Below are positions 24,024 through 57,249 of a DNA stretch of 64,000 nucleotides, in pieces (the first letter of the stretch is position 1; every line of letters starts with the position of its first letter). The translations under genes were made by a program, and so were the position numbers. This stretch comes from Acholoe squamosa (taxonomy: Eukaryota; Annelida; Polychaeta; Phyllodocida; Polynoidae). The notes under the pieces are model-generated. The model was not told where the DNA came from and did no database searches. It saw only the letters and a program-made list of their open reading frames with translations. The stretch spans positions 2,931,174 through 2,995,173 of the forward strand of contig OX439045.1 in NCBI GenBank assembly GCA_949317995.1, given 5' to 3'.

Positions 24024-24027
24024 ACTG

Positions 24028-27897: not shown

Positions 27898-28547
27898 TGT
27901 CAATGGACCATTCTGGGTATTATTATTATTTTTCATATTTACTAATTTCTTCGCCATATAAAACCCAAGCTCTGCTCACGATCCATACTCAACAATGTCC
28001 CGCATTCCTCAACAGGAACCAGGATCCTTTAGTCACCACAAACACATTTCCTCCATGAGGCTCTGTGACATAATGTAGACGGATGTAATAACATTCCAAT
28101 CATATCTACACCCAGACAGCCCCGCTGGAGGATGTGGGGTCCACCTGTGATGCCATATTTGGAATGAGAGAATATTTCACAATCTCCTCTCAATCCTCAT
28201 CAATATGATTAACACACAGGTGGCAATCTCTCCCTATGACACGTGTCCCTATTTCATTGAGCCACGTGTATAGAATATTTCACAACACTGCCAGCTGCTC
28301 AAGTCCTTCATATAAAAGGCAGCTTGAGCAGCTCCCAATCATCTCTCCCAACTTACACCTTACACCTATACCTAGAACCTATGACAGGTTGAGCTATAGG
28401 ATCAGAGGCAGAGCTTAGATCTTGGCGAGTGTTATCATTGTTACCACCTTTATGAAACACTCATGTCAGCTATGCAATAAAAGGATCAACTGAACTTCCC
28501 TGGATTCCGTGTACATTCACTTCACCACATGTAACCGTCCGTTGACA
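27898..28547 (+). mobile_element. 5' LTR of the inserted Gypsy element
   Basis: TGTCAATGGACC...CCGTTGACA, 650 bp, with TGTCAA/TTGACA inverted ends. I found only one difference from the 3' LTR (C at 27952 against T). Target duplication ATTC lies at 27894-27897. Features: TATAAAA at 28311 within the loop of an 11-bp inverted repeat (AGCTGCTCAAG 28293 / CTTGAGCAGCT 28323), and AATAAA near 28476. Confidence 0.95.
28311..28317 (+). promoter_or_regulatory. LTR TATA box within a hairpin loop
   Basis: TATAAAA sits between AGCTGCTCAAG (28293-28303) and CTTGAGCAGCT (28323-28333). The 3' LTR has the identical arrangement. The solo LTR and the minus LTR keep the arms, with a changed TATA-like centre. 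Confidence 0.7.
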
Positions 28548-30214: not shown

Positions 30215-30281
30215 CCTCACCCTACCCCCATCTTTCCCATATCCCAAACAATATACCAAACTTACCAAACCCAGTTACCAT

Positions 30282-30697: not shown

Positions 30698-30724
30698 GCC
30701 CACATGGCAAATAAAAGCAAGGCC

Positions 30725-30865
30725 ATGTATCTGTTTGGCAAGCTGTTCATTGTTATCAAGCCAAACGCCCCCACCACTGTATTGAACCATCTTAGCTCAC
30801 TAATCACTAAAAACCCTTACAAAAGAGTCAGGGTAAAAATACATCAATTACTAGCCATAGATTAA
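30725..30865 (+). pseudogene. Accessory ORF 2 remnant, copy A
   Basis: A 46-residue frame starting MYLFGK, 28 bases after the CxxCH gene stop. It corresponds in position and weakly in sequence to the 136-residue ORF at 46277-45867 of the minus copy, which starts MDLFEI. It stops early, so it is probably truncated. Confidence 0.5.
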
Positions 30866-31088
30866 CCTGACAAGCTAGTCTATTTTAGAAATTATGCCTA
30901 CCAGTGTCCTACTAGCAACTCACCCCAAACAACAGACCCCCCGAAATTTTGTATAAAACCTTTCATTTTTCCAACCCAAAATTCCCAAAATTCACCGCGC
31001 CCCACACCCCACCCTTTTCTCCCACACAAAACCAAGCCCCCCCCATTCAACCACCCAAGCCCCATTTCCCCCCCGAATAAAAATTCGT

Positions 31089-31400
31089 ATGAGTCACTAT
31101 TGCAGTAGAGTACATGTGCACTGGCAAATCAAAACAAACCGTTTTGCCAGTATACCCGTAACCATAACAACGGGGGAATTACCCACTTTATTTATAGAAC
31201 AGGTGTCCCCACGCTGTAATAGTGAATGCCCGGCGAGTTTAGCCACGGCATCGTCCCCCGATCCAGGAGAGCATACCAGATAGAAGGCTCGGGCCCAAAC
31301 GGCGGCAAGCATATGGGGATCTGCTAAACCCCAAGAAGCCCAGTGTCCCAACTATCTATATATGTTTAAACTCAACCTGGCTGAGAGGGCCACATACATA
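31089..31400 (+). pseudogene. env-like remnant
   Basis: About 40 residues around RVHVHWQ match the env-like ORF of the minus copy (KRRVHVHWQNQNK, near 44590). A second fragment at 31351-31410 (LAERATYIVNG) matches the C-terminus of the 43709-42804 ORF (LAERAIDTVN). Most of the env region between is deleted. Not functional. Confidence 0.75.
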
Positions 31401-32025
31401 GTCAATGGTAGGTAAAATTTCGACTCACCATTCCAACATGGCCGGCTTCGGTTCATGATGGAAACTACCATCCCACCTCACTAACTACCAGCCACCCCCA
31501 CAATCATATAACTTAAAACTGTCCCAAGGTTATACCCAAATGTCAGTAGTGTTTGGAAGGTACCATCACACTTATGTGGGGATGGCAGGTAGCCCCCACA
31601 CATACGCCGCAAAGACGCTTATGTGGGGATCGCCCCCCCATCTAGCCTACCCTTCTCCCCCCCCCCGCCCCACACTGAACCCCCCAGCCTCCGCAAGACG
31701 CCCAAAACCACACCCTTACACAGCCATCATCAAACATAATGAGCTAAACAACATCATAGCCAAGGCTAAGCCTAACTAATACAATAGACCAGCCTACACT
31801 AATGTTCTTCAGTATTGGCACCGGCTGCAGCGTCTGGTCCGCAACTTTCGCGCCATACGCGGCAGCCCAGCGCCATCTTGGTTTCGTTTTAGTTACCGAA
31901 ACTGACGGACATCACGGCCGTCACCATGACTACCATCGGTCATGTGACATCCGCACATGGCACCTCTACCACAACAACAACATTAGCACATGTTCAGACT
32001 TTAACTTGCTCAGATCGGACTTACC

Positions 32026-32267
32026 TCAGTAGCCATTCGGCATACCCCCGGGCGGGACAATTATCCACTGGATCTGTGTGATGCTAAAACACAATCCAAG
32101 AAGTAGATTAGACCAAAATGTCCCATGTCTCGACCCTCAAAATTGTCAAAAATTCAAGTATCACCCCTTTGTGTATCAAAATATACTTACAATCCGCCCG
32201 TCATGGTGATCACTACGTGTAGGATCGTGCCGTTAGGCAAAACGATGTCCACCTCGTAGACCTCCAT
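32026..32267 (-). CDS. Small two-exon antisense gene, copy A
   Basis: On the strand opposite to env: TATAAAA at 32307-32301, ATG at 32267, exon 1 32267-32191 with donor GTAAGT, exon 2 32083-32026 after TGTTTTAG, TGA at 32028. The joined frame is 44 residues, starting MEVYEV and containing VLPNGTILHVVIT. The minus copy carries the counterpart on the plus strand at 41965. TATA-to-ATG distance, exon 1 length (77 versus 80 nt) and donor agree. The function is unknown. A transcript from here would run antisense to env and the accessory genes. Confidence 0.55.
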
Positions 32268-32300
32268 GATTATGTAACATTATAACATCACACCCCCCCC

Positions 32301-32307
32301 TTTTATA
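32301..32307 (-). promoter_or_regulatory. TATA box of the antisense gene, copy A
   Basis: TATAAAA on the minus strand, 34 bases upstream of the antisense start codon. The other copy has TATAAA (41922) at 38 bases. Confidence 0.5.
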
Positions 32308-33797
32308 GCAGCCCGAATCAAAATTTTGGCGACACAGGAAAGAAATTTTTTTTTTCTCGCCCCCCCCCATTTCGGCCCAAAAATTTAAATTTCCCTTCAA
32401 TCAGCATCAACAGAGTTCTTTTTAGGATATTTGAGACAGGTAGGAGTCGACCTGAGCAGGTCATACCTACATTAATCCCCATAACTTATCTGATTTTTCG
32501 CCATTACGGTGCAGCGCCAGCTCGCTACTACCACCTGGTGGAATTTAGATAAACTAACCATAGCGTCCCTGGATACAGGACCCGCGCTAAACCAATAAAT
32601 CAATTGAGCTCTGTACTTAGGTTTTGTACGTTAACAAAATGATATTGATCTCACGTCCTTTTTCTGTATTGACCGTGGCCTGTCTGCAACCCATGACAGA
32701 CAAACTATAGGTCGATGAATTGTCTCCTCTTCCTACTGTCTCCTCAACAAGTACAACCAACAGAGCATCGTTTCCTTCAGTGCCAGAGGCCAAACCCAAG
32801 GAGAAAGGACCAGTACCATCAAGTCCGGAAACAAGCAACACCAAAACAACATGGCAAATTATAACCAGTAGCTCGCCATGGCACTTTTCAGGCCACAAAA
32901 TGACAATATCACCATAAGGACACCAAAGCCTACTTCCCAACAGCACCCAAATTGACACTTCAAGAGACACAAATAGACATTTTCTCAAAACCAATTTTTG
33001 TATAACCATATTTTAGACCCAAATTGCTGAGACACAATTGTGACGTTGATTCATGATTTTTGATGAATTTTACGAGAGACACACCAAAATACCCTTCTGG
33101 ATTGCCTCTCTAGGTGCTACAAAATTCATCACCTTTTACCACTGTTTTTCAAGCTCAACTATGACATGTATTTATGAGTTTTAGTCAAATTAGTTATCCA
33201 TAATCAACAGGTTGTATACATCCCATTTCTGTATATTTTCATGAAAAATTACCATGTTTCTAGTCAACAGTAACACTGAATACCACCTTGACTTATACCT
33301 TATACCCGACTGTGTAGCAGACGCTACACAACTTCAGTTATGAGCCTTGGTAATGTGGAGCCAAAGACTCATCACCCTTGTGTTGATTGTTGACCCCACA
33401 ATACCAAGAATCACCAAACTTGGTTAATTTTCATCTGGATATATTTCATTGTGTATTATTGTATAAAACCAACATGTTATCAAATCAGAAAAATTTTCAT
33501 TTTCCCACGATAACATACCGGTACATATATATTTTAAGCATTGTACATATCCCGGCATTTAAAACCTGTATTTTTCATTAAGTCACTTGATCCACACAAA
33601 AACTTTATTTTTGTAATTCCATAAAGGAACCCCTTTTTTTTATACTGCATATAATGTCAAACCCATCAGGTTTTTCACAAAACCCAGTATTTGCATAATA
33701 ATACCCATAATTGTCAATGGACTTGGCAAAGCCTCATCTTTTCTACTTATTTTTCTCCCTTTACACTCGTGCAGAGACGAGTAGGAATGTGGGGATT
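32308..33797 (+). other. 3' interior of the inserted Gypsy element
   Basis: No clear gene. A Ser/Pro/Thr-rich open segment (32705-32917) has no domain. The minus copy has no clear counterpart beyond the first 100 bp. A purine-rich AGGAATGTGGGGA lies directly before the 3' LTR (33783-33795) and is the candidate polypurine tract. Confidence 0.5.
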
Positions 33798-34447
33798 TGT
33801 CAATGGACCATTCTGGGTATTATTATTATTTTTCATATTTACTAATTTCTTTGCCATATAAAACCCAAGCTCTGCTCACGATCCATACTCAACAATGTCC
33901 CGCATTCCTCAACAGGAACCAGGATCCTTTAGTCACCACAAACACATTTCCTCCATGAGGCTCTGTGACATAATGTAGACGGATGTAATAACATTCCAAT
34001 CATATCTACACCCAGACAGCCCCGCTGGAGGATGTGGGGTCCACCTGTGATGCCATATTTGGAATGAGAGAATATTTCACAATCTCCTCTCAATCCTCAT
34101 CAATATGATTAACACACAGGTGGCAATCTCTCCCTATGACACGTGTCCCTATTTCATTGAGCCACGTGTATAGAATATTTCACAACACTGCCAGCTGCTC
34201 AAGTCCTTCATATAAAAGGCAGCTTGAGCAGCTCCCAATCATCTCTCCCAACTTACACCTTACACCTATACCTAGAACCTATGACAGGTTGAGCTATAGG
34301 ATCAGAGGCAGAGCTTAGATCTTGGCGAGTGTTATCATTGTTACCACCTTTATGAAACACTCATGTCAGCTATGCAATAAAAGGATCAACTGAACTTCCC
34401 TGGATTCCGTGTACATTCACTTCACCACATGTAACCGTCCGTTGACA
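33798..34447 (+). mobile_element. 3' LTR of the inserted Gypsy element
   Basis: 650 bp, TGTCAATGG...GTTGACA, differing from the 5' LTR at one position that I could find. ATTC duplication follows at 34448-34451. The TATA hairpin and AATAAA are at positions equivalent to those in the 5' LTR. Confidence 0.95.
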
Positions 34448-36140
34448 ATTCTGTAGATGATGTTGTGTCGGACTTGAATCAATTTGATTTTTGCGCAGTG
34501 ACTGACATCACCAATGCATACCGTTCTATTAATGTCCTGCCTGCCCATTGGGACTTTTAGGGCTTTGCCTGGGATGTGGGTAATGGTAAGGAATTCTTCC
34601 AAGATATGTCATTGTGCTTTGGGTTGCACTGTGCCCCCTTCATATTCACCCAAGTGTCTGACTTCATAGTAAAATGTGGTGCTAATGGCAAGTACCCACA
34701 TTGTATCAACTACTTGGATGATTACCTCGTCATGGGTGATTCAGAATCATCTTGCCAGGATGCTCAAAGCCAGTTATGTACAATGTTGAATGGTCTAGGG
34801 TTCAAAGTAAAAATGAGCAAGTTGGTTCCCCCATTACAAGTGACTAAGTTCCTTGGGATTGTAAGTGAACTTAACCTTCTCAATCGCTAACGATAAACTC
34901 GATCGGGTAAAAGCAGAGGTTAATTACTTCAGGGGCTGGAAATCTGGCACTATGAAACGCTTGGAAAAATTAGCTAATCTCCTAGGCCATTGTTTGACAG
35001 TCGTTAATGGTGGACGCACCTTCTCCCGTCGTGTGTACAATGAGCTTCAGGACCTTCCGTCCGGCATCCACTGCTTTAACCTGACTGAGAGTCTGTTATT
35101 GGACTTAGAGTGGTGGTACCAATTTGTTACTTGGTTAAACGGCAAGGCCCGCAGGATAAGGATTGATAACCCCTCTCACACTGTGTATACGGATTCTTCA
35201 AAATACGGATTAGGCAGGCACATTGAAGACGACTTTTTCTATGGTTGTTGGTATAGAGATGACAAGTGTTTGGGCCATAATGAAAATCCCCAACAGAATG
35301 AATCATACTGTGATCATATTAACATTAAAGAAATATGGCCTGCTGTAGTATCAATCCACTGCTGGGGCAGTGAGTGGAAAAATGGCTTTGTAGCTATGTA
35401 TACGGATAACACACAGGTTCAAGGCATGATCAACTCTGCCAGGAGTACCAGCCCTTATGCTATGCCTTGGCTGCGGGAATTATTTTGGTGCTGCGCTCTA
35501 TACAACATTCATCTGAGGGCCTTCAGCAGGATTAGTTTTGAAGATATCATATTGGCCAATGCTCTCTCTCATCTAAATAATGCCGATCATGTAGTTATTT
35601 GTGGCTACACTATTGACATATTCATCAATTGTTGTTACAGAGCTGGAGGCACTGTGATGCAGTTGGGAGGTTCTGAGATTGAATTACTGGTCCGCCAACA
35701 CTTATAAGATAAGGAAATCACAGTGGAAGCAATATGAGGACTTCTGTGAAGAGAATAGTTTGTGTTACTTACCAGCCTCAATACAAACCGTCTGTTTGTA
35801 TATAACCCATCTCTCTGATCGTGTGGCATATCACACAATTGAGAACTATATTTCGGGTAAATATACCGTAATCTCCCGCGTATAAGACGTGCTGCGCGTA
35901 TAAGACGCACCCCAAACTCAGCACATGCATTTTTGCGTATAAGACGCACATTTTAAGGATGGAATTTGTAAGATTAGTACATTTCTATAGTAAAATTACC
36001 CCTCGTATAAGACGCACCCCCAACTTGAAGAAATCCTATAAGACTCACAATGCATTTGTTTGGCCTAGAGGACGCGTCTTATACGCGGGAGATTACGGTA
36101 GCATAACCTCTGACAGCCACTGACTTATTAAGGATGTATT
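34448..36140 (+). pseudogene. DIRS-like retroelement: RT, RNase H and start of tyrosine recombinase
   Basis: Continues the DIRS-like pol after the Gypsy insertion. RT motifs: FCAVTDITNAYRSI (first Asp), FGLHCAPFIFTQVSDFI, INYLDDYLVMG (YLDD catalytic box). RNase H: HTVYTDSSKYGLG and AMYTDNTQVQ. The last part (NYWSANTYKIRKSQWKQYED...SLCYLPASIQTV) resembles the N-terminal SAM-like domain of DIRS tyrosine recombinases. Breaks: TAG at 34558 (DF*GF), a small frameshift near 34862, and MITE insertion at 35866. After the MITE only a few codons continue (SGVNSIT). The recombinase catalytic part and the terminal repeat are lost. Confidence 0.85.
35866..36098. mobile_element. TA-flanked MITE (CCGTAATCTC family), short 233-bp variant
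   Basis: CCGTAATCTCCCGCGTATAA at left and its inverse ending GGGAGATTACGG at right, TA on both sides (35864-35865, 36099-36100). Same length as the copy at 27333. Inserted in the recombinase-coding part of the DIRS-like element. Confidence 0.93.
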
Positions 36141-37310: not shown

Positions 37311-37689
37311 AGGACCTGCAATATCGACAGGTATCAGACTCGGAATATCCAGAAAAAGCACATATATCTTTCTAATGTAGTCCCTAAGCATGACTGTGTA
37401 CTAGTTGACTGAGATGCTATGCCTACTGAAGCATAATCTATATATTTACATGAATGACACATAATATATCTACTTTCTCACATTAGTATTATCTATATAT
37501 ATAATATGCTCTTAGGTATCTACATTATCAGAATAGCTTTTAACTGTATTATTTAATGCTCCCACATAAAGAGAATTAACTTTTGTTAGATGTAGAGCTC
37601 TTTTCCACCTCTCTCCATGAACTTGGTGCATTACACCGAAATATTTGTCACCTAATGCTGATTTCATTATCATCAACTCATTTTCACCT

Positions 37690-39510
<1,821 letters not shown>

Positions 39511-39789
39511 TAAACCCTGCATATTTGCCACGCCCTGAGTTCAGCAAGGCTCTATAGGACTCTGACATGGTCTATATCATATTAGTCACAGCTGATAGAC
39601 AGGTTTTTACTGTACAAGTCTTATGTTACCTTCTGTCAGAAGTCCAAATTATTCATTTGCCCATCAATATTTTTTATACTATACCTGAAATCAATAGCTA
39701 ACTGGCAGGTTTCTAGGGGAAGTGCTTGTGAGTATCTAGATACATTATAAATGACTTAAGTTAGCAACAAGTGCCTAGATTCTCCTATC

Positions 39790-41315: not shown

Positions 41316-41921
41316 CGGTTTTAACTGGAAACGTATGGAGGAGTTGACTTTGTATACTTCTCCAATTTAATAACATGTCCGGATTGAAACCAGCAGCTTC
41401 TTGAAGATGAAGAAAAGGTCCCAGAGTGCGTTATGGCTGGATAAGGAACTGGGGTTATGAGCAAAAAAGCACAGTTGAGGCCCAGATAGTTAGATAAAGA
41501 GTATGAGGCACTAGCGGCCTTATAATTGTGATGGTAAGAGAAACTATATATGATCAATAGCTGCAGATCGTCATCAAATAGGTTGTCTTTGCCTCCCATT
41601 CTATGAACTCTTCGAAATATGAGATGTATTCTGGTCCACAAGGCTTAGGGCTTGGAGGGGAACCATGGTTTTCCCTATCTGTGAGGCATAAGAAGTAAGC
41701 TTCAAGAGCCAAAAAGGGTCTTTTTGGGGGCAAAGATTATCGACTATTTTTTTTCAAATATTTCAAACAGCGGCCCAAAGTTCCAGAAATTGGTTGAAAG
41801 GGATTGAAAATGGGTTGAGTTTTGACATTCTAGCATAAACTTTGTTAATTGAAGCTTAAAGGTGAAAATTGGAAAATTTCGAATTGAATTCTGAGTTTTG
41901 ATGCCTATAGCCTTGGCCCTA

Positions 41922-41927
41922 TATAAA
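41922..41927 (+). promoter_or_regulatory. TATA box of the antisense gene, copy B
   Basis: TATAAA (within CCCTATATAAAGGATG) lies 38 bases ahead of the ATG at 41965. Copy A has TATAAAA at the same place. Confidence 0.5.
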
Positions 41928-41964
41928 GGATGGGTGCCGGCTATCTTATCAGTAGTTACGCAAG

Positions 41965-42162
41965 ATGGAGATCGTACAAGGTGTTCTGTACCTGCCTGAC
42001 GGCCGGGGTCTTCTGGTGACCGTCTTCATAAATGAGGATGGGTCGTAAGTAACTTTAAATAGGTGGCTGTGTGAAATTTTTCTCCGGGATTTCGATTGAG
42101 AGGATTTGTGTGCGAGCCTAGGTAACTCAATTTTGGATTTCTTATCTTTCAGGATTCATTAA
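41965..42162 (+). CDS. Small two-exon antisense gene, copy B
   Basis: Exon 1 41965-42044 starts MEIVQG and ends at donor C|GTAAGT. Exon 2 begins at 42153 after TTATCTTTCAG and reaches TAA at 42160, giving 29 residues. A GC-rich hairpin (TTGCTGGCGCC/GGTGCCGGCAA) and AATAAA (42198-42203) follow at once, a compact 3' end. Exon 1 shares the M-E..., LP-D/N-G and L-x-V-x-V/I pattern with copy A. It is transcribed opposite to gag, pol and env of its own element. Product function unknown. Confidence 0.55.
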
Positions 42163-42197
42163 GTCACCTACTTATTGCTGGCGCCTCAGGTGCCGGC

Positions 42198-42203
42198 AAT
42201 AAA
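42198..42203 (+). terminator. Poly(A) signal after the antisense gene
   Basis: AATAAA directly overlaps the right arm of a 10-bp GC-rich hairpin 36 bases after the stop codon. Confidence 0.45.
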
Positions 42204-42559
42204 TGGGTTTTAGGAAAACGTGAGAAATCCCTTTGATTATGATGCTCAGGTTGTTTGCACGTGTTGATGTTGTTTTCCGCTAGTGTATCAAGTCAGAACG
42301 ATCATGTGACCAAAACTAACCATCATTTGCATTTCACAGGGCCCTTTAAAAATGGCGACACCGGGTCGCGACTGGCGCGAAATTTTGTGCAGACGCTATT
42401 GGTACGTCTATAAGTTGTAAAACGGTTGTGCGTCGTCATTGATAAAGTTTTGTGAGGTTGATGTGAAGCAACGGCAGGGTTTTTTTGCAATTGAGGGCAT
42501 GGTTTAGGTTATAGACCGAGATGGGGCCTTATGGGGGGCTCCTTGGGGGGTCTCGGGGG

Positions 42560-42803: not shown

Positions 42804-43709
42804 CTAAAACATGAAAAACCTACAATTTACGGTGTCAATGGCCCTCTCAGCCAGTGTAGGGTTGAATAAATACAGATCCTTGGGGGGTTGGGTTTCCCTG
42901 AACTGTAACAGAGCCATCTCTGCCGGAGTTGTCCTGCTGGTGGAGGCTTTAGGGGCTCCCCGCCTGGGTAGGTCCTTTCTCCGTGTGATAGGTGGCACTG
43001 GGTTGAAACTGGCCGAAAGTTCATAGTCACTTGGTGTTAGTTGGAAATCAGGTTGGCTTTCTTGTACAATAGCCAAGGTAACGGTGTGGGGTTTGGATCT
43101 GAGGACAATTGAGAGGGGAATGCGCCAGAGCAAAGGGCAACTGGGGTACCTCTCCAGCTTCACCGTCCTCAGTCTTCCACCAATGCTCATGCTGACCTCT
43201 GATTTCCAATGCGCATCAAGATGACGGGCTAGAGGGAAAGTGAACCTGGGTGGTGTTAGTTTGGGTGCCAAGATGGAGGCTGGCCAAAGGTTCCGTCCAT
43301 ATACCATTAATCCGACTGGAAAGGCGTAGGTACACCCTCCAGAGTGGATTTTTAGCACAAATCTTGGGGTGCCGGGGACAGGGTCCTGTCTGCCATAGGG
43401 CCAATGCCTAAGACAGCGTCTCCCTGTGGCCCTGATGAGTAGCAAGATGAGGATGATGCCCAGGAAGGTGATCATAGAATCATACCTTCCTGGCATTTGA
43501 ATCCAGTCAGGTGTTGTTATGTCCTGGGGTGTGGTCCGCGTGGGCCAATTTTGGTTGGTGTTCTTGATCATTTCCTTTAGCTTATTCCAAGACGCTGCGT
43601 CAGCCATCGTTGCTCGACTGTGAATGGTGATTAATTGGGCTAAGTATGCCACGCGCATGTGCACATGACATGTGATCAAGCAGCACAAGATGGCGATGGC
43701 TGGCGACAA
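42804..43709 (-). pseudogene. Membrane-protein ORF downstream of env (tail or separate protein)
   Basis: A frame of about 300 residues. The first part is a hydrophobic segment (AIAILCCLITCHVH) that looks like the transmembrane anchor and short tail following the env ectodomain. An ATG near 43607 (MADAASWNK) could start a separate protein with its own membrane helix (MITFLGIILILLLI, near 43460), then a basic, Arg-rich region of about 200 residues. The end (LAERAIDTVN) is conserved in copy A. Whether it is env C-terminus or a distinct accessory membrane protein is unresolved. Confidence 0.5.
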
Positions 43710-43957
43710 CAGGTGTAACCAAGGGGAAAACTCCAGGTGATATCCCAGATGTATAATTGGTAGTTGGTGCTCAGGATGGATGATTTATCATGAATTTTGG
43801 TTGCAGCGCCCTTTAAGTTTAAAAAGTCTTTAAATAGGGGTAGGAATTTTTGGTTGTGAAGGCGCTTAAGGCGCTGAAAATTTGGTAGGTCTAAATGGGT
43901 CAGGGTGGTTGCTATGGTTACCCCTGATATATTGTTTGGTGGGTTACCAAAATGCCG

Positions 43958-45220
43958 TCACAGTGGCAAGTTGACGGGCACCTTGGCAATAGGTTCTAAA
44001 GTAAAGTTTTGGGCGCAGGACAAATTGGAATTAATCATTATCATGCCTTTGTTTTTAAGTGAGCAGAGGCATGGCACTGAAATAATAGAGTAGGCTACAT
44101 TTTTGATTTCGATTTTGCCTGAGTTAGAGCATTGCATTATTGATGGTGAAGTGCTAGTGATCAGCATGTAGGAGCTTTGGGAGATGGGCTTAATAATGTT
44201 GGGAATTTGTGCTGTCATATGGGCCTGGAAATTGCAGGTGTGATGTACAGCGTCTGGTAGGTCTAAAAATAGAGATAAGCTGCAGGTGGGGTACCTGGGA
44301 GATAACATGGGCAAGGGCAGATTACAGGTAATAAAACTATTTACATCACATAGATCTAAGTCGGTGTGGTCAAGTTCAATGTAGTGTGACTGGGACACAG
44401 ACACAGCTATGTAGTCAGGCAAGGACTGTACTTGTGTAAATCCAGTAGTGTTTACATTGGTGGTATCAAATGGGACTGGGAAGGCTTCCGCCCTATAGAT
44501 GGAGTAGATGTTGTCTCCTAGTCCTATGGGTATAGGTATTGTGATGTAAAGTTTGTTTTGGTTCTGCCAGTGCACATGCACTCTCCTCTTGTAGTAGAAA
44601 CCGATGGGTACATTTAGAATTGTGATACCTTTATGGGCTTCATACAAGGAGCTTGATAGGTTATTAAGTCCATCTTCCATGACTTTATGGGGAATTGATT
44701 TTGTGGGTAGCTCACCTTCCATTAAAGAGGTTAGTGAGTCTAGAAGTGTGTCTAAATCATTCTGCAGATTCATTAGCGCTTCAATTTGAGAGTTAGCTGC
44801 AGTAAACAACATTGAATAATAGGTGTCTCGTCTGCTTTGTTGTTCCAGGATGAATAAGATATTTGATACATTATTACTCAAGAGCTGGAGGTTAGAGCTC
44901 AGTAAAGACAGGGCGTCATCCGTGTCATTTTGTATGCTAGAGAAAATGCTCAGAGATTGGTAATTAAACTCAGAAATGTTCAGTAGAAAATGCGTGGCTA
45001 ATTCTACCACATGCATTTTAGTAGCTAGGGTTCTTTCTAAGTCTGACATTTCAGAATTCAACAAAACTACTTCAGGTTGCGTGCTCAAGCCAATTGATGC
45101 TCTCAAAATATCACCTATGATCTGTCCTGGGGCACCTCTGGGTATTCTGGTTTGGGGATGCTCTAAAAATTTTGTTAAGAGGTCTAAGGATTTCTGTGAT
45201 TTCTGATAAAGGTTTGCCAA
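43958..45220 (-). pseudogene. env-like glycoprotein, main ORF
   Basis: A 420-residue frame with Asn-x-Ser/Thr sites, a long helical region rich in Leu/Ile and Asn (residues about 55-190), and a Cys-rich distal part ending in a CxC (PCLCSL). This layout (helical segment, then paired cysteines before a membrane anchor) is that of class-I-like Env proteins of LTR elements. An in-frame TGA at 43958 ends the frame. Downstream codons stay open toward the anchor at about 43700. It overlaps the upstream ORF in another frame, so a frameshift is present. Would act in the membrane of particles if intact. This copy is broken. Confidence 0.6.
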
Positions 45221-45510
45221 AATTAGATCTAAAGACTGGGCGGTCTCTAAGATGAAACTTGGGGCATTTCTGCTGATTAGGGTGGTTAATCTGTTCGGGT
45301 CGCTGCAAGGTTTGATTAAAGGATAGGTCTAAAGCGAAAACTAATGGGTAATCCATATATCCTGAGATCATTTTCTGGGGCATTTTAGTGAACAAAACGC
45401 CATAATTTGGCCTGAAGATGGTTTCTCTTTTGGTTACAAAATCCTGTGCTCCTGACTGTTGGGTCTGGACGCACGTAATTAGGAAGAGTGCTGCCAAGGA
45501 GGCTGCTATC
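45111..45510 (-). pseudogene. env-like N-terminal ORF with signal peptide
   Basis: The frame opens at a strong acceptor (CTATTTTTAG at 45511) with a hydrophobic segment (LAALFLITCV) typical of a signal peptide, followed by a basic ectodomain start. No ATG is nearby, so it is probably a downstream exon of a spliced env message. It runs out of frame into the main env ORF between 45220 and 45111. Confidence 0.5.
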
Positions 45511-45866: not shown

Positions 45867-46277
45867 TCAGGGTTGAGAGCTTTTGACTATGTAAGGAGCG
45901 TATTTGACCATTTCAAACGCTGCCAGCTGAGTCTGAAGATTTGTGGTTTGGATTATGACGTTATGTCTGCCAATACCTGTTTCATATCTTGGTAGCTCGT
46001 TTAGTGGCTTCTCTGAGGTAATCAGAGTTCTGGCACATAGAAGTGCAATGTAGCTTGATGTTGCCTCACTGAATCTATCCCATAATGGGACTGTGGGGAA
46101 GTCTTTGCATAAGTCGAATATCATGGCCTTGGTGGCCGATAACACAATGGGGTCTTGTAGGGTGAGCTCCCTTTGAACTGTTTTATTGTTTAGGTATACA
46201 CCTAGGTCGTTGCTGGATATATGTTTGATCATGTGTCTTTGTTCGATGATAGTTAGTCTGATCTCGAACAGATCCAT
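45867..46277 (-). CDS. Accessory ORF 2, copy B
   Basis: A 136-residue frame starting MDLFEI 26 bases after the stop of the CxxCH gene, so the two could share a message. Mostly helical by composition, few cysteines, no membrane segment. No recognised family. A shortened counterpart is at 30725 in copy A. It lies between the internal promoter and env. Confidence 0.5.
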   Translation of the reverse strand: MDLFEIRLTIIEQRHMIKHISSNDLGVYLNNKTVQRELTLQDPIVLSATKAMIFDLCKDFPTVPLWDRFSEATSSYIALLCARTLITSEKPLNELPRYETGIGRHNVIIQTTNLQTQLAAFEMVKYAPYIVKSSQP

Positions 46278-46303
46278 GGCCTTACTTTTGATGCCGTTTG
46301 GGC

Positions 46304-46711
46304 CTAAAAGACTGTGGATGGTCCACCCTGAGTTGACTCCATGTCTAATCTCTGGGGCACTAAGGCTGTGTGAATAAATGGTTTGAGAGGTTTGTGGTTA
46401 GACTAAGGTAGATGAATGGGTCGATGGGGGGTTGTCAAGAGGTTGATAAATAAAATTGTGAAAAATCAGGCTGCCATACATGGTTTTGAAAAAGGACTGC
46501 AAATTCTACAAAGCAAATTTTACAAAGCACTCTGGGCGCACACTACCATTGGCATGTAATGGCTATCTGGGAACATGATGGTAGATTCCATCATTGTCAT
46601 GCTAGAACGATTGATGACGCTACTAATGGGCACATAAGACCAATCCTACCTGGGCTTGTTGCATGGCAGTCCCGACACTTGGGTCCTGTGGTCTCCGGAT
46701 GCTTGCTCCAT
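46304..46711 (-). pseudogene. Small two-exon accessory gene (CxxCH protein), copy B
   Basis: Exon 1 46711-46650 starts MEQASGDHR and ends at GTAGGA. Exon 2 46365-46304 follows TTCACACAG. The stop TAG is at the same place as in copy A and the sequence before it is nearly the same (STQGGPSTVF against STQGGPSIAF). One extra base in exon 1 shifts the frame before CRDCHAT, so this copy is broken while keeping all signals. Metal binding by CxxCH is an inference. Confidence 0.6.
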
Positions 46712-46775
46712 AGCGGCTGGATGTGGTGAGTTTGGTGTATTTGATGAGAGTGGTTAAGATTGGGGTGGTGTGAGG

Positions 46776-46783
46776 CTTATAAG
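46776..46783 (-). promoter_or_regulatory. Internal TATA box, copy B
   Basis: CTTATAAG, 65 bases before the CxxCH gene start, with conserved flanks. Same octamer as copy A. Confidence 0.6.
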
Positions 46784-47618
46784 CACTTCATGAGGTTGGC
46801 TAATTCCTCATTACATGCCTCCCGATGAGGTATGTCTCACCCATATATGGCGCGGGGCCTAGCTATTGGTTGGTTTGCATATAGGATATATCTGTGGTAT
46901 GCAAATTTAAGGGACCTTGGCCGAGGTACGGATGATCATAGGATGATCTGAATATTGTAGTATGAATAGGGGGGTAATGGCTGTGGCACTGAGAGTAGTG
47001 AGCTTACCAGGGGTGCACTTGTTCCTGTTGTGCTAACACAGCAGGGAACCGTGCTGAATTATTTGATTAAGTGTCTCACCAAACATTCCAGTACTGATGG
47101 TAAACAGAGGCATAAACACGGATCAGGATGTCTAGGTGCTGCCCTCCTATGATAGGCGGTCATTTGGTAATACCTTAGGGTATAGAGGAGCCCTGAGCTT
47201 GTAACAAACCGGCGCATGCGTGATCCTGATATTAGGATCCACGAACCGAGAGTACGCTGTGACCTTGGGTAATTTATGTGGCATGCCAACCTTAATCAAT
47301 CATTTATGACTGTCTGAGTTTCAAGCTCTAAATAAAATTCTTGACAATGTCCCATCAGTAGAAATAAGCCAGAAAGCTTTTGGGGTTTGTGTAAAAATTT
47401 TGAAAGTTATAGGGAATTTGTATATGATTTTGATGATAAAAAAGAAATATAATGAAAAGAAAAAAAATTAATTTGTGAGGGGAAAAACATCATTGCACGA
47501 AGCAACATGTGACCAAAACTGTCACTGGGTGGGGACAAAAGGTAGAGAGGTATGTGTGTGAGTGTGGGGGGTGGGGGGGTGGGGATTGAAAAGGAAGAAT
47601 TTTGTGTATTCTGAAAAT
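46784..47618 (-). other. Conserved post-integrase spacer
   Basis: Non-coding in both copies yet clearly alignable with 29560-30206. It may hold regulatory sequence for the internal promoter. Confidence 0.55.
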
Positions 47619-48965
47619 CTATTTCTTTTTCTTGGACTTTTTCTTTGCCTTCTTTATTGGGGAAGGGGCAAAGGTGACAATTCCTTTCTTTGCAGGTCGT
47701 CCTCTTTTCTTTTTGACTGCGGGGGATTCTGGTTCACCAGTGTGGGTGAAATCTAGATCAGGGTCATACAAGGAACTAACTGGCCCAGACTGCAGTCTTT
47801 TGATTACAGCCTTGGCGCTAGCCTTGGTGATTGGTCTCCTTAACCTAGATACATGTATTGATTTCTTCAATACTTTACCATCCTGTAGCCTTTTTAATTT
47901 TGCAGTTACTGGTGAAGTCATTTTCATGATGATGTATGGTCCACTGTAGGTGGGCTGCAGCTTCTTGCTCGTTTGCTTGACCAGCAGGTTAGGTATGTGT
48001 AAATACACAAGCTGACCTGTGTCGTAGGTGCATGGAGAAGCAGTGGCGTCATATCTGGCTTTCATCTTTTTATGGTATTTAACCATGCTCTCAGCTGCCT
48101 TAAGCTGGATGTTATCCCTTAAACTGAGTAAGGCGGTAACCAATTTTTCCTTGTCTTTGATCTCTTCAGTTTGTTGGACCAAGGAGAGGGAGGACTCAGT
48201 TGGGAGATGTGTTTGCCTTCCAAATACTAAAAGATTGGGTGAGTATCCTAACACACTGCATACAGTGTTGTTTATGCTGAATGCTATAGCCTGTAGGAAG
48301 GTTGACCAATGTTTTTGTGATTTGGAGACAAAGGCTCTGAGTGAAGATTCTATTGTCTGATGTTGAGGCTCACATAGACCTTGTGATTTTGACCAATGTG
48401 CACTTCCTGTCACGTGTTTGATGCCAAATTATTCACAAAAAGATGTGAAGTATTTGGACACATACTGTTGTGCATTATCTGTGTTCAGGACTGATGGGGT
48501 CCCAAAAACACAAATAACCCTTTGGAAAAATCCTAGCGCTACTTCAGCGCTGGTGTTATCCTTTGTGGACCAAACAGTGATGTGCCTGGTAGCATGGTCT
48601 GTGACAACATGGATAAATGAGGATCCATCCACAGCAGGTGTGAAAGGACCGATGGTATCCATGGTGAGGTGGGTGTAGGCTGTTAAAACAGGGTCCCTCA
48701 GGGTCATTGGGGTTCTCAAGTGTTTTGGTCTTTTCTTTGTTGTGAGACATGTATGGCAAGTGCCACAGTAGTCAAAAACTTGTTTGAACATGGAACGCCA
48801 ATAATACCTGGATCTGATTGCTGCATATGTTTTAGTGGGACCAAGGTGTCCTCCTAGTGGCGAGCACTGTGTGGCCTCAATTAGTGACTCCGCCCATTTT
48901 TCTGGCATCACTATTTGTAGTGTAGGCTCTAAACTGTCTCCATAGGTTGATTTGGTGATCCTAAA
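47619..48965 (-). pseudogene. Gypsy integrase
   Basis: N-terminal HHCC zinc finger (GGHLGPTKTY...CGTCHTC), catalytic core with MDTIGPF (D1), LNTDNAQQY (D2) and CEPQHQTIESS (E), then a GPY/F-type module (TYSGPYIIMK) and a Lys-rich tail (KKAKKKSKKKK). An in-frame TAA (48431-48429) splits it between D2 and E. Otherwise full-length, about 440 residues. The coding frame can be followed back to about 48960, where foreign sequence with a hairpin begins. Confidence 0.88.
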
Positions 48966-49883
48966 TAAAACCCACCTAGAACTATGTCCAGCATAGTTCT
49001 AGGTGGGTTCCCACACCTAGCTCCTGACCTGCTGCTTTAGAGGAATAATGTAATAATGAATAACTTTACCCTCTGGTGGAAGTCTTGAGGAAGATACCCT
49101 CTGGCCACTAATGATAGAAACCAATGCCTGTCTAGCATAGTTTCACCATAGTGCAGTGGTATAGCAGGTAGCAGGAGATGACTGGAGATGTTACCCCCAT
49201 GGGCGCCGCTGTGTCCCCCATTGTCTTGGTCGGTTCTGTAACTTCAAACCCCCATATCTCGGAAGTTTACGCCGTTACAACCGCCATTTTGCGCATGCGC
49301 GGAGTTGAATATGCCAAGTTTAAACTGCCTGCTTGATAGGCGCGTAACTTACGCTGGTTTGTCTGTAGTGCACTCGGAGGTTGATTCAGTCTCCCTGGCG
49401 TAACTTCCTTAATAATGGGAGTTATGCCTTGATCGTGGGCTTATTTTGACCGTCTAATTATGGGCTTTCCATAACTGCCTTGATATTTGACCTAGCTTGC
49501 TCAGGAGCGACGCTAGAGCGACCGGACGGTTATGGCGTCGTGCTTTTGTAACCCATTGTTCAGTTATTAGAGTGCTCAGACACTCATGACGGCGTCAGCG
49601 GTGCTCAGGCACCCGTGACGGCCGGTTGCATTCACTTACAACTTATTAGTTTGTGCACTGAACCATGAGGTCGCACACTGAGACCCTCATTTTTATTATA
49701 TTGTGCAGTGAACCATTAGGTCGGAGCCTTTGATGTCATAAAGTGTGTTGTAACTGACCTGGCTGGTGTGCAGTGGGGCATGAACGCTCTTATACAAAGT
49801 TTGAGCGCTCTTATAGCTCTTAGAACCAACCTATGTATTAATTTCATAGATATTCTTTGATTAATACAATAATATGTTAGAAT
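48966..49883. mobile_element. Unidentified insertion between RNase H and integrase
   Basis: About 920 bp without coding similarity separate RT-RNase H from integrase, which normally adjoin. It starts with an 18-bp perfect hairpin (AACCCACCTAGAACTATG, 5-base loop, exact complement, 48969-49009). The rest is GC-balanced with no TIR that I can pair. Nature unknown. Confidence 0.5.
48969..49009. repeat. 18-bp perfect hairpin
   Basis: Left arm 48969-48986, loop TCCAG, right arm 48992-49009. Confidence 0.95.
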
Positions 49884-51905
49884 TTATGGAATAATAAAAT
49901 GGTATATCATAAGTGTCTCCCTAGATGGGGTCAGGGAGTGGTGTTTACATAGCTGGCTTATCGCTCGCTCAGCCACGGGTAGCACTTTGTGTGATAGCTT
50001 AGCCCTTCTGGTGTTAGCTAATTTCACTGATACTCTGGGTGACCTGGATTTGGTGGCCTTGACCTTAGGGGGGTGGGTCTGTTTACTTCTGGTTGATTTG
50101 CTGGGCTGAGGGGGTGTGGCCGGGTCTGGTAACTTGGCTTTAGATCGAGTTAAAATGCACAGCTCGGGCTCAACTTGAATGGAGCTGAGTTTTTCTCTCT
50201 CAGAGCTACCTTTCTTGGCAATCACACCCTTTGGCTTCTTTGAGGTGCTACCCCAAATCTGTCCTTCTTTTAGTATGGACCTAGGTGGTCCCATGAGCAC
50301 TGGATTTTTGGGAACTGGGTCATTTGATTTGAAGACTTTGGTCATGGTAATGTCAGAGAATTTAACTGATTTAGGAGGGAGTATTATTTTACCTTTAGAC
50401 CTGATGGGAATTGGGTCATCAGAGCCGGGCAAGTATTTCCTTCTGGAAAGAAAATCTGCCACAATATTGGCTCTGCCTTGCAGGTATATAACTTCAAAAT
50501 CATAGGACATGACTGTGTCAACCCACCTGGCTAACCTTCCATTGGTTATATTTTCCTTTTTATTGAAAATGGAAACCAGGGCGGTGTGATCCGAGTATAC
50601 TTTGAAGTAAGTTCCATCCACATAATGGTGGAACTTTTTGACTGCAAAAACTATTCCCAACAGTTCTTTATCAGTTATCCCATACCTAGATTCTTGAGGT
50701 GTCAAACCTCTCCCTGCCAATTCAATTGGTCTATAGAAACCATAGTCATCTACCTGAGTGATTACAGCTCCTAGGCTGTAGTTGCTAGAGTCAGTAAAAA
50801 TGACAAAAGGTCTGTTATAGTCCGGGAATTTTAGCACAGCTTCAGTACAGATTGCAGCTTTAATTTTCTCAAAGGCTCTCTGACATTCAGTGGTCCATTT
50901 AAAGGTGCTTTTTGTCGCCTCATAAAGGGGCTTCATGACATGAGCAAAACCTCTGATGAACCTCTTGTAAAACTGCGCCATACCATTGAAACATCTAAGA
51001 TCATGGATGTTTTTAGGTGGGGGGAAAGTTTTGACAGGTCCTATTTTGTCCACGGATGGGGACAATCCATGCTGGTCTACATTGAAACCCAAAAATTCCA
51101 TTTTGGTAGTCCCAAATTCGCATTTTTCTGATTTCAGTTTGATATTTCCCTTGATAAAAAGTTTCAAAACCTTGTCTAGATCTTGTAAGTGCCTTTCCCA
51201 CGTGGGGCTGTAAATGGCTACATCGTCCACATATGCTACAGCATTTTTATACTTGCATTTCATGAGGAGTTGTTCCATTACATTCATGAAGGATAGGCCT
51301 GAGGTTTTGAGTCCCATAGGGAGAACTTTGGCCATGTATCTCGTGCCATTGGCAGAGAAGGTGGTAAGTGGCCTAGATTCTTCTGCTAGGGGAATCTGGT
51401 GATAGGCGCTGTAGACGTCCAATTTAGAAAAATATTTGGCGCCTGTCCTGCCTATCTGCTGCATGAGGTCGTCAGCTCTGGGGAATGAGTAGGAAAAGGT
51501 TTTTAAATTCTCATTTACCCATCTGTAGTCAACTACAATCCTCCAACCAGAGGCTACTGACCTGTCACCTTGTGGTTTTGGCACTAAAAAGGCAGGTGAG
51601 TTCCACTCACAGGGTTTGGTACACTCTTCTATTACCCCTTGTTCTAAATGTTTCTTTAGAAGTTCCCTTTGAAAAATTTCTTTGTGAGGGGACATTCTAT
51701 AGGACGGTCTGTTGCAAGGTTTGAAGTCTGGCTTTAATTCCAATTTGACTTCATTTTCTACATTGAGACCTATAGCGCTTTCATTTAGGACAAAAGCCTT
51801 CCTGTTGGCCTCAACAATGTTTTTAATCTGTTGTCTTTGAGTTTCAGAGAGCTTGTTACAGATTTTATACTTCAAAGGTTCATCTCCTTTGGGGAGTTGG
51901 TCCAT
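49884..51905 (-). CDS. Gypsy reverse transcriptase and RNase H
   Basis: A 673-residue open frame. RT: VVDYRWVN, KLDVYSAYHQIPL (first catalytic Asp), LPMGLKTSGLSFMNVMEQLL, AVAYVDDVAIY (YVDD box), GFNVDQHGLS. RNase H: FVIFTDSSNYSLGAVI, KELLGIVFAVKKFHHYVDG, YSDHTALVSIF, GRANIVADFLSR. A basic Ser/Lys-rich tail of about 170 residues follows, longer than usual before integrase. Coding continues upstream of the ATG in the same frame to about 51955, so the protein is probably made as a Gag-Pro-Pol fusion. It is the best-preserved part of the element. Confidence 0.93.
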   Translation of the reverse strand: MDQLPKGDEPLKYKICNKLSETQRQQIKNIVEANRKAFVLNESAIGLNVENEVKLELKPDFKPCNRPSYRMSPHKEIFQRELLKKHLEQGVIEECTKPCEWNSPAFLVPKPQGDRSVASGWRIVVDYRWVNENLKTFSYSFPRADDLMQQIGRTGAKYFSKLDVYSAYHQIPLAEESRPLTTFSANGTRYMAKVLPMGLKTSGLSFMNVMEQLLMKCKYKNAVAYVDDVAIYSPTWERHLQDLDKVLKLFIKGNIKLKSEKCEFGTTKMEFLGFNVDQHGLSPSVDKIGPVKTFPPPKNIHDLRCFNGMAQFYKRFIRGFAHVMKPLYEATKSTFKWTTECQRAFEKIKAAICTEAVLKFPDYNRPFVIFTDSSNYSLGAVITQVDDYGFYRPIELAGRGLTPQESRYGITDKELLGIVFAVKKFHHYVDGTYFKVYSDHTALVSIFNKKENITNGRLARWVDTVMSYDFEVIYLQGRANIVADFLSRRKYLPGSDDPIPIRSKGKIILPPKSVKFSDITMTKVFKSNDPVPKNPVLMGPPRSILKEGQIWGSTSKKPKGVIAKKGSSEREKLSSIQVEPELCILTRSKAKLPDPATPPQPSKSTRSKQTHPPKVKATKSRSPRVSVKLANTRRAKLSHKVLPVAERAISQLCKHHSLTPSRETLMIYHFIIP

Positions 51906-52577: not shown

Positions 52578-53765
52578 TTATTTATGTCTACAGAAACTGC
52601 ACCTACTGGGCAGTCTGTCTTCTTTCAGCCAATTTTTGTTGTTATTTGGCTGCCCAGCAACTGGTATGAAGACAAAACTCTTGTTGCTCTCAGAGGATCT
52701 TGATCTTTGTTCTGATCTGTCACCTGACCTGTCTCTTCCTGGGGACTTATAGTCAGATCTATTTTTGGAGTTGGATCTGTAGTCCTTGGGATTGGACCTG
52801 TCTGAAGACTTGGACCTTCCTCTGTAGCTGTTTTTGAATTTATTTTCATACTGCTTGCTGTAATTACTACTGGGCAGTCTGTCTTCTTTCTTGTGGTCGC
52901 GCTGATATTTATCCTTTCTGGATCTGTTGTCGTCCTTGTTGTAGCCTACTGCACATAACTCTGCTGAGCTGTTCTGAGCAATTTTTATTGCCTCAAGGTT
53001 CAATTCCTGATTTATGGCTAACTGCTCAGCTTCCAGCAAGGTCTTGGGAGATTTAGCTACGACAACATTCTTCAGCTCGGGTCTGAGGCCATTTACAAGG
53101 TAGTCCACCTGTGAAGCCTCATCCAGGCTGCTGTTGGACAGCAACATGGTCATGTCTGCAAGGTAGTCCTCAGTGGTTTCATTTGGCTTCTGTTTTCTGG
53201 CTCTGTACCCTTTGAGGATGGTACTGAGGTCGGGGTTGCCAAATCTTGCCAAGAAAGCCTCGTAGACTGCCTCCTTGTTCTGCATGATTGGCTTGTCCAT
53301 TATATTGCTGAAGGACCACTGGGCTGCCCTCCCTTTGAGAAAGGTGTACAGGCATGTTGCATGTAGGTCACGTCTCTTGGCATGCACATTTCTTATGAAA
53401 AATTTGAATTCAGTCAGAAATTTTGCTGCAGACCTGTAGGGCGTCGGTTTGTCAAAGGGTTCAGGCTTGTTGAATGAACCTAACTGGGCAGATGTGAGCT
53501 TGTCGCCGTCTAATCCACTAGGGGAAAGTCTGGTGTACTCAGCACCATGATATCCTCCCTGGTGCACTACCGGTGTGGAGTGTGCTATGTGGGAATACCT
53601 AGGGGGATATGGTAGCTCGGAGTGGTTGTCTGCCTGTCCCTGGGGACTGTAAACACCATTAACCACATGGCCACAATGTTGGTTTGGATTAGGCGCTGTG
53701 TTATATGATGCTGTCGCCCCCTGGTAGGTGTTTGGTGCACTAGCTGCGGGAGACATGTAGTGCAT
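52578..53765 (-). CDS. gag: capsid and nucleocapsid-like region
   Basis: A Pro-rich start is followed by a retrotransposon capsid pattern (FKFFIRNVHAKRRDLHA, FLKGRAAQWSF, RARKQKPNETTEDYLADM, LVNGLRPELKNVVV). The C-terminal third is Arg/Ser/Asp-rich (RSGDRSEQRSRSSESNK) and basic, replacing zinc knuckles as the nucleic-acid-binding part. No CCHC box. 395 residues. It is continuous in sense, though not in frame, with the upstream Pro/Ser-rich ORF. Confidence 0.82.
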   Translation of the reverse strand: MHYMSPAASAPNTYQGATASYNTAPNPNQHCGHVVNGVYSPQGQADNHSELPYPPRYSHIAHSTPVVHQGGYHGAEYTRLSPSGLDGDKLTSAQLGSFNKPEPFDKPTPYRSAAKFLTEFKFFIRNVHAKRRDLHATCLYTFLKGRAAQWSFSNIMDKPIMQNKEAVYEAFLARFGNPDLSTILKGYRARKQKPNETTEDYLADMTMLLSNSSLDEASQVDYLVNGLRPELKNVVVAKSPKTLLEAEQLAINQELNLEAIKIAQNSSAELCAVGYNKDDNRSRKDKYQRDHKKEDRLPSSNYSKQYENKFKNSYRGRSKSSDRSNPKDYRSNSKNRSDYKSPGRDRSGDRSEQRSRSSESNKSFVFIPVAGQPNNNKNWLKEDRLPSRCSFCRHK

Positions 53766-55406: not shown

Positions 55407-55974
55407 CATGAGTGTTTCATAAAGATGGTAACAATGATAACACTCGCCAATATCCAAGCTCTGCCTCTGATCCTATAGCTCAACCTGTCATAGGTTCTAG
55501 GTATAGGTGTAAGGTGTAAGTTGGGAGAGATGATTGGGAGCTGCTCAAGCTGCCTTTTATATTAAGGGCTTGAGCAGCTCACAGTATTGTGAAATATTCT
55601 ATACACGTGGTTCAATAAAATAGAGACACGTGTCATAGAGAGAGATTGCCACCTGTGGGTAAATCATGTTAATGAGAATTGAGAGGAGATTGTGAAATAT
55701 CCTCTCATTCCAAATATGGCACCACAGGTGAATCGCACTTCCTCCAGCGGGGCTGTGTGGGTGTAGATATGATTGGAATGTTATTACATCCGTATACCTT
55801 ATGTCACAGAGTCTCATGGAGGAAGTAGGGTTCGTGATAACTTATGGATCCTGGTTCCTGTTAGGGACACAGGAGATTATTGAGTGTGGATCGTGAGCAG
55901 AGCTTAGGCTTTATATGGCGAAGAAATTAGTAAATATGAAAAATATTAATAATACCCAGAATGGTCCATTGACA
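55407..55974 (-). mobile_element. 5' LTR of the minus-strand Gypsy element, truncated
   Basis: Ends GGTCCATTGACA at 55974 (the 5' end in element sense) and matches the 650-bp LTRs to CACTCATG, where about 98 bp, including the LTR 3' end and primer-binding site, are deleted at an ATG microhomology that joins directly to GATGAACCC. The hairpin-flanked TATA region is retained near 55545-55580. Confidence 0.92.
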
Positions 55975-57249
55975 AAGGAATGAGCCCTCTTAGTTTGGTG
56001 AATATATCTTGCATTGTCCCAGAGATATCATAAGAAAAGCATAGGCATGGTCACATCTATGACCGTGGTCACAACTACGACCATGGACATGTCTACAGTT
56101 TTCTTTCGAGGTGCTTGATACTTGGCTGTCCTTGTTATGTGTGACTGATATCTTATTAGGAAAGGAACATTGAAGGTTAATGAGATTTTTCCATCTTAAT
56201 GCAACTATGAGCTACTGCATTAAATACAAATGCATGGTCACATCTACAACCGTGGTCACATCCGCTGTTATTTCGAATATAGACACCTTGGAAGCAGGGA
56301 CAGGTCAGAAGCAGACATCTCGGAAGCAGGCATTGGGACATCTCGGAAGCAGGGACAGTTTGGGTGCAAAGAGAACCATGATAATATTCCTCTCTTCTTA
56401 TAGAAAAAAACAACAACCCTAGTGATACTGTGCCTATGCCGTAGAATCATGTATGGCAAAAAAATGTTTTTAATTAAAGAAAATAATTATTTCTTAGAGT
56501 TGTTTTCTTCCGAGATGTCTGCTTCCGCGATGACTTGCTTACAAGCTGTCTGCTTCCTACCTGTCCCTGCTTTCGAGGTGTCCAGTTACAGTTATTTCTA
56601 CGACCGTTTTTTCAAGTGTAGTGCATCACTGGCATGTCTCAAGGCTCACATACATGCATGTATTTCATTCAGCACAAATAATAGAGAACCACCATGCAGT
56701 TTTTGAACTGTTACTGATCCTCTAAAATAACTCGTGATTGTTTAACAGCCACATATCAAAAATAAGTTTTAGAAGAATACCCTACAGAAAGTAAAAAAAA
56801 GTTGTTTCTAAAGCAATATTGGGATTTTAGGGGCAGTGGCCATTAAATGCGCCATATTCACCTGGAACTTTTTATTTGCAAAAAAAAAAGTTATGTGCAA
56901 TAAAAGAATAGGATTACTTGGTCAGAAAGCATTTTCTGTAAAATTCTCTGTAAAATTTACGGAATTTTTTAACAGTGTACATGTGTTCAATCAATATCGA
57001 ATATTAAATGTGTTTTATTGTGCATACCTAATCACTTGCTCATTTATTCCAGACACTGGCCTTACTACACCTCTCATTAACATTTGAAAAATGTTAAAGC
57101 ACTTGATTAATCACTGGACCTTACAAAGTCATCCCATGACAATTATGATTGGGCATTTCTATACATTATGGTCTTGGGATCCCTCACTCTACTGCCATTA
57201 CAGCCCTGCATCTTGTGGACACTAATGATTGCACTGCTGCGACTGTCTT
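55975..57249. other. Gene-free stretch with a foldback
   Basis: No gene. A foldback occupies about 56240-56620: GAAGCAGGGACAGGT, GAAGCAGACATCTCGGAAG and GTCACATCTACAACCGTGGT in the left arm (56240-56370) pair with CTTCCGAGATGTCTGCTTC and ACCTGTCCCTGC in the right arm (56500-56620). Confidence 0.6.

Follow-up and report, generated by a model that had tools for sequence, protein, structure and literature searches.

Antisense accessory genes in LTR elements are already known elsewhere: HBZ of HTLV-1 is a bZIP factor, and gene23 of the plant element Grande was reportedly described by Gomez-Orte in 2013, as papers citing that work relate. In the excerpts of the sources used here, transcription of HBZ and other retroviral antisense genes begins within the 3' LTR, at promoters that have no TATA box (PMC10186651), and Grande gene23 is placed antisense between pol and the 3' LTR, with its own promoter upstream of the gene (PMC11963269, PMC7264820). 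The antisense ORFs of plant Ty3/gypsy elements of the Retand and Grande kinds are, according to the same excerpts, usually long and endowed with TRP28 and other DNA-binding-like domains (PMC11963269, PMC7264820). For invertebrates, an extract on MchSLE-1, a Steamer-like element of Mytilus chilensis, describes an antisense mRNA with a 67-aa ORF, which is driven by the 3' LTR and has an IRES in its leader, in an element without env (PMC10974842), and antisense RNAs of Drosophila micropia are described, in an excerpt, as having no coding capacity (PMC7264820).

The locus considered here lies in the window, i.e., the whole 64,000-nt stretch of Acholoe squamosa DNA that was analysed, and we judge with a probability of roughly 0.88 that it represents a genuine accessory gene, carried by a group of Gypsy-type LTR elements, that codes for a protein antisense to gag-pol and is situated in the spacer between the env-like ORF and the 3' LTR. 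As judged from aligned copies, a TATA/initiator stretch, a short leader, the ATG, a phase-2 intron of ~60-110 nt and exon 2 are conserved, and a predicted protein of 44-46 aa is under purifying selection, in several families of one genome. Element A, which hosts one of two such loci, resembles Grande and Retand in that an ORF on the antisense strand occupies the space from pol to the 3' LTR, and a conserved TATA/initiator stretch ~2 kb from the LTR may correspond to the own promoter of those genes. The plant genes, for which the excerpts mention no intron, differ from the present one, which belongs to an animal element with an env-like ORF, has two exons and would encode 44-46 aa; TRP28 or another known domain is absent here, neither peptide having a Pfam match at E<=10. 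MchSLE-1, too, is an LTR retrotransposon of an invertebrate and has a small ORF on its antisense strand, but it has an LTR promoter and no env, with no intron or selection test mentioned in the extract, whereas the present gene has a putative internal promoter, a predicted intron and signs of selection. HBZ is similar in being antisense and downstream of env; it is spliced, and in our element the splice sites and the predicted spliced frame are conserved. The HBZ promoter, however, lies in the 3' LTR, in contrast to the conserved TATA box ~2 kb from the LTR in our element. The micropia RNAs are also antisense products of a Gypsy-type element, that of an insect, but noncoding according to the excerpt. 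The initial annotation had ascribed antisense genes to a few retroviruses, a list to which plant, mussel and (noncoding) Drosophila elements must be added. In the open-access literature we found no animal Gypsy element with an antisense protein gene that has two exons and a TATA promoter; with most subscription papers outside that scope, this is weak evidence of absence. Comparative tests, and not motif reading alone, indicate that a Gypsy-type element of an animal has retained an antisense protein gene that is predicted to be spliced and to have a TATA promoter of its own. The antisense layout with an internal promoter has so far been best known from plant elements, and that with LTR promoters from retroviruses; annotation based on ORF length misses such genes.

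Two loci and their host elements

At locus A, on the plus strand, a TATA box (TATATAAA, 41920..41927) is followed at 41949..41953 by the motif TCAGT, which resembles an initiator (Inr) and whose A sits 31 nt past the first T of the TATA box. Exon 1 (41965..42044) begins with the ATG at 41965 and is open for 80 nt, or 26 codons plus 2 nt; the intron (42045..42152) extends from the GTAAGT donor at 42045 to a CAG whose acceptor AG is at 42151-42152, and exon 2 in the family frame spans 42153..42213. At locus B, on the minus strand, TATAAAA reads from 32307 (32301..32307), exon 1 (32191..32267) is open for 77 nt from the ATG at 32267, the intron (32084..32190) starts with a GTAAGT donor at 32190, and exon 2 (32026..32083) begins at 32083 and closes with a TGA that ends at 32026, which gives a product of 44 aa. 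The TATA box, ATG, GTAAGT after 80 or 77 nt and acceptor that the initial annotation listed at each locus are therefore present in the sequence, but the stop that it assigned to the plus-strand locus, at 42160-42162, is a premature in-frame stop, a lesion common to 3 of 40 copies (L001, L029 and L058). The window copy of A is broken early in exon 2, yet intact copies exist elsewhere in the genome.

Element A lies on the minus strand and has the composition of a Ty3/gypsy element, with gag, RT-RNase H and integrase in order and a 5' LTR: the LTR (55407..55983) is 91.5% identical to that of B, the gag ORF (52578..53765) matches Retrotrans_gag in Pfam, the RT-RNase H ORF (49884..51905) matches RVT_1, RT_RNaseH and RT_RNaseH_2, and the integrase ORFs (47619..48998) match Integrase_H2C2, rve and SH3_Tf2-1. 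The env-like ORFs (42804..45328, consisting of 43958-45328 and 42804-43784, on the sense strand of the element) are long and suitably placed but had no Pfam match at E<=1, so the env label, taken over from the initial annotation, rests on position. In all three related copies that were fetched, an LTR of A's type is found at the 3' end and starts 1.9-2.2 kb upstream of the antisense ATG; the window copy has lost its own 3' end, since family homology stops at 41756. With the 3' LTR about 2 kb away, the TATA box lies outside the LTR and the promoter would be internal. A further LTR of A's type and orientation, at 23480-24024, is piecewise 88-93% identical to the 5' LTR of A and is either a solo LTR or the displaced 3' LTR of A.

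The two loci had been regarded as copies of the same element, but they belong to different families, A being a long gag/pol/env-like element and B a 6.5-kb non-autonomous one. Element B is bounded by LTRs on the plus strand at 27898..28547 (5') and 33798..34447 (3'), which are 99.85% identical and have ATTC flanks on both sides; its 3' LTR is 1.5 kb from the antisense ATG. Nothing matching the pol of A was found in B, and its env-like region is degenerate. The insertion as a whole (27898-34447) is recent and belongs to a large family, with 678 first-look candidates for the microgene region. A segment of ~1.1 kb that separates pol from the env-like ORF (29638-30735 in B, 46267-47351 in A) is 81% identical between the families, in parts up to 97%, and is kept in the non-autonomous B.

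Constraint on the reading frame across copies

When both strands were scanned for a suitably spaced series of TATA box, ATG, open frame and GTAAGT, A and B were the only places found in the 64 kb; they occupy corresponding positions in their two elements, and both donors are phase 2. The exon-1 peptides of A and B are alike, with a score matched by 96 of 20,000 shuffles; at the DNA level identity is 51% in exon 1, 39% upstream and 77% around the donor, and the exon-1 alignment barely exceeds the level of unrelated flanks. The A/B pair alone is weak evidence, insufficient to decide gene status.

We searched the A locus in the host genome (1.48 Gb, 63 contigs), which yielded 293 candidates, and scored the best 40, which are 84-100% identical and include the window copy; ranking by resemblance to the query, with a ceiling of 40, biases the sample towards conserved copies, and most strongly so for family B. 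Among these best 40 of 293, the ATG, the AG acceptor and TCAGT are each kept in 40 and the GT donor in 38, and the TATA box reads TATATAAAG in 26, the rest being variants, one of them TACATAAG. Exon 1 is of constant length in 39 of these copies, the intron in seven. A 46-aa product ending near 42213 is encoded by 29 of the 40, and 27 of the 29 also have GT and AG; the products of L011 and L014 end slightly differently, and a looser intactness count is 29/40. The 11 copies that failed the intactness test are as expected of old insertions. A hairpin and AATAAA (42174-42203), of the kind mentioned in the initial annotation, do not hold up as a conserved 3' end: they fall within exon 2 of A, and the AATAAA is retained in seven of the best 40 of 293 copies. 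A GATAAA-type signal just after the stop was also rejected: over the next 260 nt the copies had nothing in common, and a search of this stretch for a conserved poly(A) signal found none. Farther downstream of the gene there is a block of low diversity (0.05-0.09) at 42280-42440 in A and at ~31820-31900 in B, in which a stretch with ATGGCG and TGGCGCGAAA, resembling YY1 and E2F sites, is common to both loci; the block is possibly an enhancer or a second promoter.

Codon-phase diversity was computed on 30 A copies with their flanks, using 20,000 permutations; upstream of 41756, L001 has no homology to the remaining copies, and the flank values were repeated without that part. At first, second and third codon positions, diversity was 0.186/0.021/0.393 in exon 1, a contrast reached by none of the 20,000 permutations, and 0.115/0.045/0.261 in exon 2 in the spliced frame (reached by 56). 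The intron gave 0.135/0.088/0.093, with no three-base rhythm (7477 of 20,000), and the phase contrast of four further stretches near the gene was no different from chance. Mean dN/dS, calculated by the Nei-Gojobori method for 406 pairs from 29 copies after one frameshifted copy had been dropped, was 0.086 for exon 1, 0.168 for exon 2 and 0.128 for both, as against 0.54 for the 33 codons at the end of the env-like ORF. The other frames of exon 1 ranged from 0.30 to 9.2, and those of the intron and flanks mostly from 0.4 to 1.06; the lowish controls were sense frame 0 of exon 1 (0.298, with 18 stops), sense frame 0 of the intron (0.295) and antisense frame 1 of the intron (0.264). The stretch from TATA to ATG (41920-41964) has the seventh lowest diversity of 690 windows of 45 nt, and the lowest of these starts at 41925. 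The initial annotation had proposed comparing the conservation of exon 1 with that of its flanks across copies. In overall nucleotide diversity, exon 1 exceeds the sequence around it (0.198 vs 0.03-0.16); such a check would mislead, because third positions of exon 1 are hypervariable and second positions nearly constant.

In family B, the best 40 of the 678 candidates were scored, at 96-100% identity, and 30 were fetched and analysed; being too similar to one another and selected for similarity, they are unfit for the codon test. All 30 have the TATA box, the GTAAGT donor, the acceptor AG and an open 44-aa frame, and 29 have the ATG. Six neighbouring ORFs in B are intact in only 2/30, 2/30, 7/30, 4/30, 8/30 and 4/28 copies, and among the ORFs tested in this non-autonomous family, the microgene alone is open in almost every copy. 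We further built a degenerate B-like exon-1 pattern that omits the window's own codons, with the backward pattern as a control, and obtained 70 matches in the genome against none for the control; by eye, the 70 include two that seem unrelated, as well as a copy of A (L057). Of these matches 13 were fetched, and each shows homology to B across the exon-1 region. Exon 1 measures 77 nt in 12 of them and 76 nt in one; 10 have a good acceptor and a product of 40-48 aa, two gave no exon 2, and TATA[AT]A stands 40-54 nt before the ATG in nine, being absent from four. At codons not fixed by the pattern, diversity was 0.321/0.173/0.539 among 23 typed matches and 0.38/0.201/0.599 among 11 representatives more than 10% apart, with 0 of 20,000 within-codon permutations reaching the latter contrast. 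A piece 6-7 kb from L103, one of the more distant places, had no match to the pol or env-like ORF of A; the more distant of these loci are candidates for residence in Gypsy elements.

These data bear out the core of the initial annotation, an antisense two-exon gene with its own putative TATA box in a Gypsy-type element, through codon-phase diversity, dN/dS, retention of frame and splice sites in 40 copies and the further families. If degenerate elements had instead acquired TATA, ATG and splice-like motifs fortuitously, the weak DNA similarity of A and B would be natural, and the motifs are short enough that 0.475 TATA-ATG-GTAAGT assemblies are expected by chance per 64 kb (200 simulated sequences); the codon-phase test nonetheless refutes this, unless it should fail on independently chosen copies, and together with the dN/dS values, the retained frame and sites and the 70 matches against none it leaves chance an extremely improbable account. 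A noncoding antisense RNA with a conserved promoter and first splice site, in which the open frame is incidental, has in its favour that variability is lowest at the promoter and the splice sites and that micropia offers a noncoding precedent in the excerpt cited above (PMC7264820), but in the spliced frame both exons show diversity patterned by codon position, with dN/dS of 0.09-0.17, and we hold this reading to be hardly more credible than chance. Just as improbable as chance is a conserved frame on the sense strand, that is, an accessory ORF of the genomic RNA: the window copy does have an open sense frame at 41949-42155, in which third positions fall on the same nucleotides as those of antisense exon 1, but this ORF was rejected as the conserved frame because 29 copies contain 18 sense stops over exon 1 and because the rhythm ends at the borders of the antisense exons and is absent from the intron, which the ORF would span.

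Predicted product and role

From the conserved signals, we infer that RNA polymerase II would transcribe the microgene from the internal TATA/initiator promoter in the spacer, independently of the LTR, that the small intron would be removed from the antisense RNA by splicing, and that the 44-46-aa protein would be translated from the spliced RNA. The microprotein has hydrophobic stretches alternating with PDG/PNG- and DG-type turns, an arrangement that by eye suggests three short beta strands. No relative was found among ~5.8 billion proteins (there were two word-sharing candidates, neither of which was scored) or among PDB sequences, where the best E was 0.067, and searches of Rfam and viral contigs gave nothing useful for the locus.

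We regard the gene as almost certainly a real, selected coding gene, and as very probably one that serves the element and not the host. Its product may work in trans, either regulating the element or assisting it, and countering host silencing or acting on the particles that the element forms are examples of what this could involve; the odds between a regulator and a structural helper seem to us about even. An accessory, probably regulatory role is our best guess, because the gene has been kept across families and, in B, despite the decay of the other tested ORFs.

Silent-site divergence in the exons

Third-position diversity in the best 40 of 293 A copies is 0.427 in exon 1 and 0.271 in exon 2, compared with 0.131 in the intron and 0.103-0.123 in the flanks; ten fourfold sites have a diversity of 0.488, and third positions of the env-like ORF range from 0.098 to 0.283 per 60-nt window. 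RT was readable in eight of 21 copies tried (12 of 20 fetched pieces had no RT match and one had too little). In these eight copies, pS was 0.544 for exon 1, 0.414 for exon 2 and 0.132 for RT, and the intron with downstream sequence gave 0.114, so that synonymous sites of the exons diverge 3-4 times more than those of RT or than adjoining noncoding DNA. Exon-1 pS was greater than RT pS in 26 of 28 pairs and not greater in two, and RT pS tracked the noncoding distance (correlation 0.92) but was uncorrelated with pS of exon 1 (-0.04). The excess recurred in eight B-like sequences (the window and seven of the 13), with 0.433 at exon-1 third positions vs 0.207 in the intron and 0.161 downstream, and in 28 of 28 pairs.

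Singletons per site numbered 0.154 at third positions vs 0.293 in the intron, and shared variants 1.577 vs 0.505. The excess is thus carried by shared variants and not by singletons, which rejects a host germline mutation hotspot and indicates that it arose along the element's own lineages. Editing of the ADAR type was rejected for want of a transition excess (0.639 vs 0.718 in the intron), and recombination alone was rejected since it would need to affect two exons while leaving out the 108-nt intron that lies between them. We favour selection for RNA divergence as the reading of the excess; an error-prone process or step confined to the exons, or strong constraint on the surroundings, may account for it instead, and the data do not separate these alternatives.

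The gene may be under selection at two levels, with a spliced antisense RNA that pairs with genomic RNA along the exons only, feeds RNA interference against matching copies and favours synonymous escape variants. This would explain the hypervariable silent sites, and the pair counts, the missing correlation, the repetition in B-like sequences and the signatures against a hotspot and against editing are all in keeping with it; the first nucleotides of the intron, however, are variable too, and the two pairs without an exon-1 excess do not conform. We put this forward tentatively, as an addition to the coding gene that is rather unlikely on balance. Slightly more speculative still is the idea that the exons form a self-recognition zone, in which the protein is fixed, silent sites are pushed apart and the spliced antisense RNA would silence copies with matching exons; lineages would then differ by the RNA code of their exons, as plasmid incompatibility groups do by antisense RNA, while encoding the same microprotein. 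The speed of change at exon silent sites makes sense-antisense self-regulation of a retroelement testable by stranded RNA and small RNA sequencing.

Elsewhere in the window, a large tandem minisatellite with a unit of ~32 bp occupies its edge (1-2653). By eye, ORFs at 34561-35885 look DIRS-type, with no Pfam match at E<=1 for 34865-35704, and those at 37662-39538 look LINE-type, with a long internal TA repeat. A long uninterrupted ORF at 57791-59380 has a PhoD-like phosphatase domain, and the one named relative among the matches listed comes from the annelid Paralvinella (45%).
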